Shown here piece after piece: positions 2,746 to 6,802 of a stretch of DNA of 6,825 bases. The notes below the pieces were generated by a model. It made no database searches and was not told the DNA's origin. It worked only from the letters and a program-made list of their open reading frames with translations. Made by a program: the position numbers and the translations under genes. Each line of letters begins with the position of its first letter. The first letter of the stretch is position 1. Origin of the DNA: Deltaproteobacteria bacterium RBG_13_61_14 (lineage in GTDB: Bacteria > RBG-13-61-14); contig MGQK01000064.1 of assembly GCA_001797815.1 (NCBI GenBank), positions 1,102-7,926 on the forward strand, given 5' to 3'.

Positions 2746-2777
2746 GTCCTTCGATCTGCTTTCATCACCCCAATCGC

Positions 2778-2801
2778 AGGGGCGTGATTCATCACGCCCC
2801 T
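2778..2801. repeat. GGGCG-framed palindrome, copy A
   Basis: Arms GGGGCGTGAT (2779-2788) and ATCACGCCCC (2791-2800) are perfectly complementary around TC, and A2778/T2801 adds one more pair. As RNA this is a 9-bp stem with a 4-base loop. It lies 32 bases after the FAD-fold gene stop, in the gap between convergent genes, and is one of four related palindromes in this window. It may act as a transcript-end hairpin for either strand. Confidence 0.75.
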
Positions 2802-2808
2802 TGGGAAA

Positions 2809-2826
2809 GGCGCAATAAATTGCGCC
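2809..2826. repeat. GGGCG-framed palindrome, copy B
   Basis: Arms GGCGCAAT (2809-2816) and ATTGCGCC (2819-2826) are perfectly complementary around AA. The right side continues CCTAC, matching the oriented CGCCCCT edge of the other copies. On the left the matching G-run is displaced by AAA (GGGAAAGGCG), so only one edge is intact. It starts 8 bases after copy A, making a tandem pair. A T5 run (2835-2839) follows 8 bases later, too far for a textbook terminator. Confidence 0.7.
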
Positions 2827-2834
2827 CCTACCAC

Positions 2835-2870
2835 TTTTTCATCGAGGTCATGAAACCAGTCCTCGAAAAA
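2835..2870. terminator. Inverted repeat between convergent genes, possible weak bidirectional terminator
   Basis: TCGAGG (2842-2847) pairs with CCTCGA (2861-2866) around a 13-base loop. Outside it, a T5 run (2835-2839) faces an A-run (2866-2870), extending the pairing after a 2-base bulge. The position between convergent stops (2745 on +, 2901 on -) suits transcription ending. On both strands, however, the T-run is on the 5' side of the stem, so it is not a canonical intrinsic terminator. Confidence 0.3.
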
Positions 2871-2900
2871 TTATAAATTTCTGAATAGCCGCTCCAGTCT

Positions 2901-4070
2901 TTAGGCCGGGCGGGAGGTAGCGCGCTTCATCAAGGTCCATCCCACGGCCATCCCGATGAGAATGATCCCGCAAGATAAGACGTAAGGCCCGCGCAGGGAG
3001 ATGTAGCGGGCAGTGGGTCCGCCGAGGAGCGGGCCGAGGAACCCGCCGACGCCGATGAAGAACTCGTGGATGCCGGTGTTGTGGCCGACGGTGGAAGGCT
3101 CGGCTTCGCCGGGCTTCTTGGAGAAGTGGAGCGCGTAATAGAGACCGGCGGAGTAGGAGTGGCCGGAAGAGAGTCCGGCGATAATGAAGCCAAGCAGGAG
3201 GAGGGGGATACTGGAAGAGACCGCGATCAGGGCTAACCCGATCAGGGAGAGAAATTGGGTAAAAACTAATAAGCGGTAGCGGAAGTGCCAGAAATGGGTG
3301 AAGGTGAAGAGCACAAAGACCAATAACATGGACAAACTCATGGAAGCGAGCAGGATGCCGATCCAGGTGGCGTTGAGGTTCAAGGTGAGCGCGAGCTTGG
3401 GAAAGAGGTTGCGGAGGATCCCGAGTGCGAACCAGAAGCAGAGGTTGGTGACCCGGGCGATGGTGAGGTGCACCGGATGCTGGTGGGGATGGCTTTCTGG
3501 CGGGAGCGAGACCGGGGCGTCGTTATGATTGGAGAGCGGCGGAAAGATCAGGAAGAGGGCGGGCAGGAGCGCGGCGCCGGCCGCGGCCAGGTAAAAGGGC
3601 ATGACCGGAGAAAAGTCAAAAATATAACCGGCCGACAGGGTGCCCAGGCCGATGCCGGTGGACCAGGAGATGTTGTAAAGCCCGGTGCGCTGGGAGAGCT
3701 TGCCGGTGTGGAGCACGTGGGCGAGCTGCGACTCCAGCGAGGGCCAGAACAGGGCGAGGGCGAAGCTGTAGAGCGCGACCAGAAAATACAAGGGCCTCAG
3801 GGTTTGGGTCGCGGGAAACAGGGCCGCGGCGCCGGCGAAGATAAAAGCGGCCAGGGTGCTGATCCGGCGAGGGTTATAGCGGTCGGAGAGCCGGCCGGTG
3901 AAAGGCACGCACAGGAAGTAGACGAGCGAACCGATCGCGCCCAGGTAGCCGAGCTCGAGCGAGGTAGCGCCGTGGCTGAGCGCCCAGACCGGGACGGCCA
4001 GCAAAATGAACGCAAAGAAAAAGCTCATGGCCGCGGGGATGGCCATGAGCGGGATCATCGCATGACTCAT
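2901..4070 (-). CDS. Major facilitator superfamily (MFS) transporter
   Basis: The 389-aa inner-membrane protein has about twelve hydrophobic helices in two halves, the normal MFS length and layout. The loop after helix 2 carries the MFS signature motif A as GRLSDRYNPRR (59-69). Other marks are FWPSLESQLA (108-117) and the helix pair around YNISWSTGIGLGTLSAGYIFD (132-152), as in drug- and sugar-efflux-like MFS proteins. The central cytoplasmic loop (about 178-205) is rich in Pro and His, with His at 182, 194, 196, 198 and 201. The second half includes GLSSGHSYSAGLYYAL (299-314) and GHNTGIHEFFIGVGGFLGP (329-347), with His residues inside predicted helices that might take part in proton coupling. 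It begins 53 bases after the SDR gene stop and is probably co-transcribed with it. ATG 4070 has no clear Shine-Dalgarno, and Met5 is an alternative start. Substrate and direction of transport are unknown; the SDR neighbour only weakly suggests a small organic compound. Confidence 0.9.
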   Translation of the reverse strand: MSHAMIPLMAIPAAMSFFFAFILLAVPVWALSHGATSLELGYLGAIGSLVYFLCVPFTGRLSDRYNPRRISTLAAFIFAGAAALFPATQTLRPLYFLVALYSFALALFWPSLESQLAHVLHTGKLSQRTGLYNISWSTGIGLGTLSAGYIFDFSPVMPFYLAAAGAALLPALFLIFPPLSNHNDAPVSLPPESHPHQHPVHLTIARVTNLCFWFALGILRNLFPKLALTLNLNATWIGILLASMSLSMLLVFVLFTFTHFWHFRYRLLVFTQFLSLIGLALIAVSSSIPLLLLGFIIAGLSSGHSYSAGLYYALHFSKKPGEAEPSTVGHNTGIHEFFIGVGGFLGPLLGGPTARYISLRGPYVLSCGIILIGMAVGWTLMKRATSRPA

Positions 4071-4083
4071 TTCAGTTCATAAT

Positions 4084-4105
4084 GGGCGGACACGAATGTC
4101 CGCCC
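4084..4105. repeat. GGGCG-framed palindrome, copy C, between the SDR and MFS genes
   Basis: Arms GGGCGGACA (4084-4092) and TGTCCGCCC (4097-4105) form a perfect 9-bp stem. The loop is CGAA on the + strand and TTCG on the transcribed - strand. It fills nearly half of the 53-base SDR-MFS gap. In - strand RNA it lies 18 bases after the SDR stop and 13 bases before the MFS start, so it could shield the SDR 3' end or lower MFS expression. No T-run follows. Confidence 0.75.
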
Positions 4106-4123
4106 CCCTTCCAGACACCTGGG

Positions 4124-4888
4124 TCAGGCCGTGGTCCCGCCGTCAATCACGAAGATCGCGCCGTTGGTGAAGGAGGCGGCGTCGCTCGCCAAATACAGCG
4201 CGATCCCGGCCAGTTCCGAAGGCTGGGCGTGCCGCTTGAGCGGGATCTGGGCGATGGCCATGTCGTGGATGGGCTTGGTCTTGATCAGCACGCTGGCAAA
4301 ATGAGTCTCGGTCAGGCCCGGGCAGATCGCGTTCGAGCGCACCTTGAACGGCCCCAGCTCCTTGGCATAAGCCTTGGTCATCAAGATCACCGCGGCCTTG
4401 GTCATGCCATAGACGCCCTGCATGGGCGGACCTACCAGGCCGGCGATGGAGGCGATGTTGATGATGCTGCCCCCGCCCTGCTTGACCATGCGCTTGGCCA
4501 CGCCCTGGGCCATGAAGAAGTAACCCTTGGTATTGACCTCAAAGGTCTTCTCGAACTGGCTCTCGTTGATCCCGAGCACGTCGCCGAAATAGGGGTTGGT
4601 GGCCGCGTTGTTGACCAGGACATCAATCCGGCCGAACTCGGACGCGGTCTTCTCGATCAAGGCGTTGATCTGCTCCAGGTTGCCGGTGTGGCAGGCCACC
4701 GGCAGGGCCACCCCGCCGGCCTGCTTGATCTCGGCCGCCACCTTGTCCAGGCTTTCCTGCTTGCGGCTGGCGATGACCACCTTGGCCCCGTTGGCCGCAA
4801 AGGTCCGGGCAATGGCCTCGCCGATGCCCCGGCTGGCGCCGGTTACAATCGCCACCTTGTCCTTCAAACTAAAACTCACTTCCGCCAT
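4124..4888 (-). CDS. Short-chain dehydrogenase/reductase (SDR), DHRS4-like carbonyl reductase type
   Basis: A classical 254-aa SDR, the typical length. Visible motifs are the cofactor loop TGASRGIG (16-23), NNAA (93-96), and the catalytic tetrad Asn119 (VNTKGY), Ser147 (NIAS), Tyr160 and Lys164 (YGMTK). After Lys164 comes CPGLTETHF and the C-terminal FVIDGGTTA. Arg20 in the glycine loop and Arg42 after strand 2 favour NADP(H). The segment VACHTGN (64-70), in place of the more common CDV/ADV, together with TNPYFGDVL, matches what is known of DHRS4-type carbonyl/retinal reductases and their bacterial relatives. It would reversibly oxidise or reduce a hydroxyl/carbonyl substrate in the cytoplasm. 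The start is placed at ATG 4888 because GGAGG (4896-4900) sits 7 bases upstream. A TTG at 4894 in the same frame would be only 1 base from that site. A promoter lies about 95 bases upstream and the MFS gene follows. The substrate is not identifiable. Confidence 0.93.
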   Translation of the reverse strand: MAEVSFSLKDKVAIVTGASRGIGEAIARTFAANGAKVVIASRKQESLDKVAAEIKQAGGVALPVACHTGNLEQINALIEKTASEFGRIDVLVNNAATNPYFGDVLGINESQFEKTFEVNTKGYFFMAQGVAKRMVKQGGGSIINIASIAGLVGPPMQGVYGMTKAAVILMTKAYAKELGPFKVRSNAICPGLTETHFASVLIKTKPIHDMAIAQIPLKRHAQPSELAGIALYLASDAASFTNGAIFVIDGGTTA

Positions 4889-4895
4889 TTTCAAA

Positions 4896-4900
4896 CCTCC
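4896..4900 (-). promoter_or_regulatory. Strong ribosome binding site deciding the SDR start
   Basis: On the - strand GGAGG is followed by a 7-base spacer and ATG 4888, which is ideal spacing. This rules out the in-frame TTG at 4894, which would lengthen the protein by two residues. Confidence 0.85.
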
Positions 4901-4924
4901 ATTCCATCGTTCACTTACGCTTAG

Positions 4925-4946
4925 GGGCGCGAATCCAATCGCGCCC
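4925..4946. repeat. GGGCG-framed palindrome, copy D, in the SDR 5' leader
   Basis: Arms GGGCGCGA (4925-4932) and TCGCGCCC (4939-4946) form a perfect 8-bp stem with a 6-base loop (ATCCAA on +, TTGGAT on -). The extended CGCCCCTAA edge is on the - strand here, so this copy is inverted relative to A, B and C. It lies between the predicted SDR promoter and its ribosome binding site (24 bases before GGAGG), so it should be part of the mRNA leader. Confidence 0.75.
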
Positions 4947-4982
4947 GATGATAACGGGATCCATCAGAAGTAATCGGGGGGC

Positions 4983-5012
4983 ACCATAGCATCCTTTTCC
5001 CGATTTTGACAA
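4983..5012 (-). promoter_or_regulatory. Sigma70-type promoter with extended -10, driving the SDR (and probably MFS) gene
   Basis: On the - strand, TTGTCA (5012-5007, 5 of 6 to the consensus) is followed by an 18-base spacer and TATGGT (4988-4983, 4 of 6). TG-C directly before it makes an extended -10 element. Transcription would start near 4976, giving a leader of about 88 bases that includes palindrome D. It begins about 30 bases after the radical SAM stop, implying that SDR-MFS can be transcribed independently of that gene. The assignment is by consensus only. Confidence 0.55.
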
Positions 5013-5042
5013 ATCCACCCCAGGGCATTCGCATCTCCATTT

Positions 5043-6748: not shown

Positions 6749-6802
6749 GGTGCCATTGGGTAGCCCACTCTTCCGCAGGAAGGGTGGGTTACTCCGGCAA
6801 CC
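6749..6802 (+). repeat. Long imperfect hairpin at the right window edge
   Basis: GTAGCCCACTCTTCC (6760-6774) pairs with GGAAGGGTGGGTTAC (6778-6792) around a GCA loop, giving 15 bp including two G-U pairs (T6769-G6783, G6763-T6789). It extends through G6759-T6793 and G6758-C6794. After an internal loop, TGCC (6751-6754) pairs with GGCA (6796-6799), and G6749/G6750 pair with C6801/C6802. The G-U pairs hold only in + strand RNA; on the - strand they become A-C mismatches. It lies upstream of and divergent from the radical SAM gene. It could be the end of a + strand transcript, a structured RNA or a dispersed palindromic repeat. Confidence 0.65.

Follow-up and report, generated by a model that had tools for sequence, protein, structure and literature searches.

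What kind of element are the short palindromes that lie between genes in this stretch of a deltaproteobacterial genome, and do they belong to one set? The stretch, referred to here as the window, is 6,825 nucleotides long and corresponds to positions 1102–7926 of contig C64 in a 4.74 Mb draft genome (132 contigs, 95% complete). The original prediction described four palindromes (A to D) as copies with a shared GGGCG/CGCCC frame, and suggested that they are REPs linked to a RAYT/Y1 transposase. A REP consists of a hairpin preceded by a 5' GTAG tag, and such elements are very short genomic parasites found across much of the bacterial world. Single-strand fold scores for the four palindromes were set against dinucleotide-preserving shuffles, and hairpins, doublets and stems were counted in a genome sample of 1.14 Mb (24%), taken as stretches.

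Hairpins were found at all four predicted places, and all four fold well below their shuffled counterparts. None of the three gaps in the 2746–5042 interval is without a hairpin. Palindrome A (2776–2801, plus strand, fold z of –6.77) is composed of GCAG, a decayed GTAG, and the hairpin AGGGGCGTGATTCATCACGCCCCT, with the plus strand reading GCAG-GGGCGTGATTCATCACGCCC-CTTG. B (2808–2831, minus strand, z of –3.53) is GTAGGGGCGCAATTTATTGCGCCT, with the plus strand reading AAGGCGCAATAAATTGCGCCCCTAC. A and B are the GTGAT and GCAAT variants, respectively, of a hairpin family designated F1, and they form the left and right halves of an inverted doublet with the tags outward, that is, one REPIN. The nearest doublet elsewhere, at L048:4872, reads GTAG-GGGCGTGATTCATCACGCCC-ttcgggga-GGGCGCAATCAATTGCGCCC-CTAC. 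C (4084–4105, no strand assigned, z of –5.44) is a perfect 9-bp stem, GGGCGGACACGAATGTCCGCCC, and D (4925–4946, minus strand, z of –3.9) is GGGCGCGATTGGATTCGCGCCC, which reads TTAGGGGCGCGAATCCAATCGCGCCCGATG on the plus strand. The hairpins are thus real, but the common frame held only in part, given that B does not have the full left frame (AAGGCGC, with the first stem pair mismatched). Perfect pairing of each copy with its own arm was confirmed for C and not for B, and D has eight pairs and an unpaired 6-nt loop at its centre. The single extended edge ascribed to every copy proved to be the REP tag in A (GCAG) and in B (GTAG on the minus strand); A is, however, extended symmetrically (AGGGGCG...CGCCCCT), C has no tag, and the only tag of D, TTAG, is located on the end opposite that of its family.

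The view of the four copies as one set was not upheld. A and B belong to F1, D to a second family (F3), and C is a singleton. The sample contained 16 F3 hairpins including D, and 13 of these have "gta" at the GTAG-side edge; D carries CATC at that position and is an F3 member that has lost its GTAG. Inspection of both edges of C revealed no GTAG, and a search for its stem as a repeat yielded a single site, with no second copy in the genome. C is at most a putative decayed REP. Differences among A to D are in part a matter of membership of separate REP families. A fifth REP of the window, at 6760–6788 on the plus strand, was identified from the list of GTAG hairpins (L035:7865-7889). It consists of GTAG and CCCACTCTTCCGCAGGAAGGGTGGG, is written GTAG-CCCACTCTTCC...GGAAGGGTGGG, and belongs to family F6, which differs from the families of A, B and D; it lies outside the 2778–4946 region.

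Hairpins of this kind were far more frequent than expected by chance. Perfect GGGC...GCCC hairpins numbered 136 in the 1.14 Mb sample, compared with 28 to 46 in order-2 Markov shuffles. GTAG was the most common tetramer at the edge of these hairpins (88 times, with the next tetramer at 9), and 38.2 hairpins were opened per 1000 GTAG in the sample, compared with 3.6 to 13 for control tetramers. The GTAG-anchored hairpins sorted into discrete families. The most common is F1, with CRATTNATYG; F2 is characterized by (A/G)(C/T/G)GGC-NN-GCC, and F3 by the loop on its stems, TTGGAT or TCGGAT. Further families are represented by GGTTCGCGAACC and GGCTCGCGAGCC, by GACCGGCCGGTC, by GTAG-CCCACCC, by GTAG-CCGCGACCG, and by GCGCGGGTG...CACCCGCGC. 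Exact matches of the F1 pattern GTAGGGGCGCRATTNATYGCGCCC to the genome came to 114 over the two strands, 52 on the forward and 62 on the reverse, a count in which "double foot" sites enter both strands; the reversed pattern, used as a control, gave none in this genome, and the exact pattern was also absent from two relatives of the same order. Double-foot hairpins, with GTAG at both ends (GTAG...CTAC), were found at 13 intergenic sites.

The hairpins were also largely extragenic, as the original prediction had anticipated. Only 22 of 152 GTAG-anchored hairpins were located inside called genes and 130 outside, with ~77% of the sample called coding, an approximate figure obtained with a simple codon-usage script; for most control tetramers, the majority of hairpins were genic. 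Such a distribution could also be considered as the outcome of selection at gene 3' ends, with the hairpins serving as intrinsic terminators of transcription or as RNA elements of another kind. The A/B doublet does lie between convergent genes, with C and D between tandem genes, and REPs are often transcribed (PMC3733652). None of the four hairpins is followed by a T tract, however, Rfam gave no match for them, and GTAG plays no part in termination. Moreover, GTAG hairpins showed no strong preference for 3' ends, being present in 12 of 84 convergent, 50 of 374 tandem and 8 of 93 divergent gaps. We therefore consider a terminator or RNA function very improbable, and mobile-element origin remains the preferred reading. 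Elsewhere in the region there is a single terminator-like site, at 4023–4050, where a 10-bp hairpin followed by TTTTTCTTTG lies within the start of a transporter-like gene (minus strand, start at 4070); it is possibly an attenuator or possibly a chance occurrence, given that shuffles yield 2.5 such sites.

To examine the stems, we used the word GTAGGGGC as an anchor, left the 3' arm free, and scored nine pairs, with thirteen control words treated in the same way. A perfect 9-bp stem was formed behind 82 of 115 GTAGGGGC words in the sample, compared with 0 to 7 for the control words. Ten of these gave 0, and the three others, GCAGGGGC (7), GTAAGGGC (4) and ATAGGGGC (1), are all near-GTAG variants. 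The 82 perfect stems comprised 24 distinct stems and were accompanied by only 6 one-mismatch copies. Pairs 1 to 4 were constant, the anchor fixing their 5' letters and leaving their 3' letters free, whereas pairs 5 to 9 each showed two to four pair types. Complementarity is thus confirmed to be kept while the stem sequence changes, genome-wide, as had been proposed on the basis of the arms of A to D. The rarity of one-mismatch stems might also reflect a copying process that rewrites one arm from the other (hairpin template switching or quasi-palindrome correction), but we regard this as a slender prospect, since few mismatches are equally expected if a transposase multiplies only paired stems and the copies are young, stems with a mismatch are poor substrates for cutting in vitro (PMC8266576), and the variation among the four copies in part separates discrete, separately amplified families.

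Selective multiplication by a transposase is the reading that we retain: the palindromes are real, structured, derived from mobile elements, and of an already known kind, and A, B and D are very probably REPs of the GTAG superfamily, with A and B constituting one REPIN, spread by a RAYT-type transposase. The hairpins of this genome share with that superfamily a tag 5' of the palindrome, high copy number, a mostly extragenic location and a variable, paired stem, and the A/B pair shows the feature of REPIN/BIME doublets, two inverted REPs close together. Together with the presence of RAYTs in the genome, these features bear out the suggested REP and RAYT/Y1 connection. By the published mechanism, the DNA would become single-stranded and a RAYT (TnpA-REP) transposase would bind the folded hairpin, the predicted substrate here being GTAGGGGCGCAATTCATTGCGCCC; GTAG would guide the choice of a CT or CA cleavage site, and cutting and strand transfer would spread REPs and inverted doublets between genes. 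Recognition would require GTAG, pairing of the stem and a few bases of the loop and would be lax on stem sequence, so that compensated stem changes would be tolerated and mismatched stems would not be multiplied. Such selective multiplication of paired stems would give rise to the constant GGGC foot, the family-specific loop, and the variable but complementary inner arms.

Single-strand cleavage by RAYTs at CT or CA near the hairpin has been demonstrated for three other REPtrons (PMC8266576). In that study of perfect-palindrome REPs, GTAG mutations impaired cleavage, with GTAG serving as a guide for the cut site, and one or a few loop bases were essential; stem sequence mattered little, whereas a stem mismatch seriously reduced cutting. 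The GTAGGGGC stems constitute a natural covariation set that agrees with this in vitro rule, according to which RAYTs recognize GTAG, the loop and the pairing of the stem, not its letters. For the copies in this genome, we infer mobilization.

Comparison with described systems revealed many likenesses. As in the GTAG-tagged REPs of Di Nocera et al. (2013, PMC3733652), the 5' tag is GTAG, with GYAG and other variants, stems are 6 to 13 bp long and loops in many families 2 to 3 nt, there are sub-families with complementary stem changes and head-to-head dimers that prefer heterodimers, and several families coexist in one genome, some common to distant species; the likeness is one of described features. 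REPs and RAYTs of TnpA-Y1 subclass 2.4 (PMC6006769) show the same foot of three G-C pairs, double-foot REPs (GTAG...CTAC), in-frame REPs inside the RAYT gene (as in loci L244 and L245, below), and a patchy distribution across phyla. Assignment to subclass 2.4 is made here by resemblance rather than with the profiles of those authors, and no such RAYT was found in this genome. The Pseudomonas REPINs (PMC3116915) are the same unit of two inverted REPs; the sequences here differ, and the spacers are short, mostly 5 to 13 nt. The constant GGGC foot, the variable paired stem with a conserved loop, doublets that are heterodimeric, REPs lying in frame in RAYT genes, and TIR-flanked RAYT relatives have all been described (PMC3733652, PMC6006769, PMC8266576).

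Doublets were a regular arrangement in the genome, with GTAG pointing outward and members mostly 5 to 13 nt apart. Inverted doublets of the 20-nt type numbered 21 in the sample, and all but one, which has GCAG, carry GTAG at both outer ends. The spacer is not conserved overall and is common to a few doublets. Two different stems, usually GCGAT with GCAAT, were joined in 17 of 18 F1 doublets, compared with a mean of 10.2 for random pairing (P of 0.0005, the true value being larger because copies sharing descent are not independent). This heterodimer preference of GTAG families has been reported previously as having "no obvious explanation" (PMC3733652). The F3 REPs showed the opposite arrangement to the head-to-head F1 doublets, pairing tail-to-tail with GTAG inside, one hairpin being of the GCGATTGGATTCGC type and its partner of the AGGT or GGGT type (L065:17754-17836, L056:4266-4339, L064:4403-4475 and L084:6836-6908).

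A scan of one genome per species for the F1 family yielded at least 117 stretches. Among the matches listed are Deltaproteobacteria, Chloroflexi, Armatimonadetes, Gallionella, Acidobacteria, Poribacteria, Omnitrophota, Bacteroidales, Oscillospiraceae and Eggerthellaceae, mostly as MAGs, for which some binning error is possible. Across these loci and the accompanying RAYT loci, 224 of 281 GTAGGGGC words opened a perfect stem of 8 bp or more, giving 52 distinct hairpins, a proportion ascertained through F1 and not an unbiased frequency. Neighbouring pairs were heterodimeric in 34 of 48 cases at loci of other phyla, with tags not outward in all. A tblastn search with the RAYTs of our genome against loci with F1 REPs identified one RAYT, in a deltaproteobacterial MAG (L162), whose frame has at its 3' end a doublet of F1 REPs. 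The RAYT of an Armatimonadetes MAG (L245) has F1 REPs at its 5' end and upstream, and a further one within the gene is in frame and translates as GAINRAPT. In a Myxococcales MAG (L244 and L255), F2 REPs adjoin and lie inside the RAYT frames.

The genome itself gave 19 matches to Y1_Tnp (PF01797) and 22 to REP_Tyr_transpos (NF047646). The RAYT of L030/L096 is flanked by REPs of the GTAG-CCCACCC type, which is F6, the family of the 6760–6788 REP, and that of L033 lies between GCGGGTG hairpins, one 27 nt upstream of the start and one 7 nt downstream of the stop. Hairpins of the GCGGGTG or a similar kind are also present at L032, L034 and L114, and an imperfect hairpin that ends in CCCGCCCTAC comes after L095. 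Cognate RAYTs flanked by their own REPs are thus present for F6 and the GCGGGTG family. For F1 and F3, the RAYT subfamily that flanks GTAGGGGC REPs elsewhere was not found in this genome (95% complete), and a search of the genome with the L162 protein revealed no close relative, the two distant matches both being RAYTs with other REPs. The F1 to F3 REPs therefore look orphaned, or their gene lies in missing sequence, and A, B and D may be orphans; we infer that the GTAGGGGC families have lost their cognate RAYT here, that it has diverged beyond recognition, or that it is encoded in the unassembled part. REPs unaccompanied by their RAYT are already known (PMC3686654, PMC3733652).

F1 (GTAGGGGCGCRATTNATYGCGCCC) and its stem variants are letter-for-letter common to unrelated phyla and to this genome, are without a detectable cognate RAYT here, and are almost strictly heterodimeric. 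That REPs cross phyla, or are held in doublets of unlike hairpins, under some rule still to be understood, perhaps with stems being actively re-symmetrized, is an unlikely interpretation. The present results add one genome to the known spread of GTAG REPs and show identical REP families in many phyla. The loose ends are the cross-phylum identity of F1 and the heterodimer rule, neither of which is new in principle, the latter having been noted in 2013.

Twelve long Y1 proteins (312–327 aa) were considered as mobilizers and rejected, given that their genes have no GTAG hairpin within 500 bp and are instead bounded by inverted terminal repeats. These repeats start with GGGGTCAG or a close variant, only the left end being evident at L017, and the genes fit the "TIRYT"/TIRtron type with the motif GGGGWSAS (PMC3733652). 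At these loci (L017-L023, L026-L029 and L031), each copy has its own inner word in the repeat, on which its two ends agree, and several copies repeat this word at the left end. In addition, the RAYT frame of L114/L116 (G000:C63:15805-16290) contains in-frame hairpins resembling REPs, GCGCCTGAGGTCAGGCGC and GCGGCTGACCTCAGCCGC, between its conserved motifs, and it stays open despite their presence.
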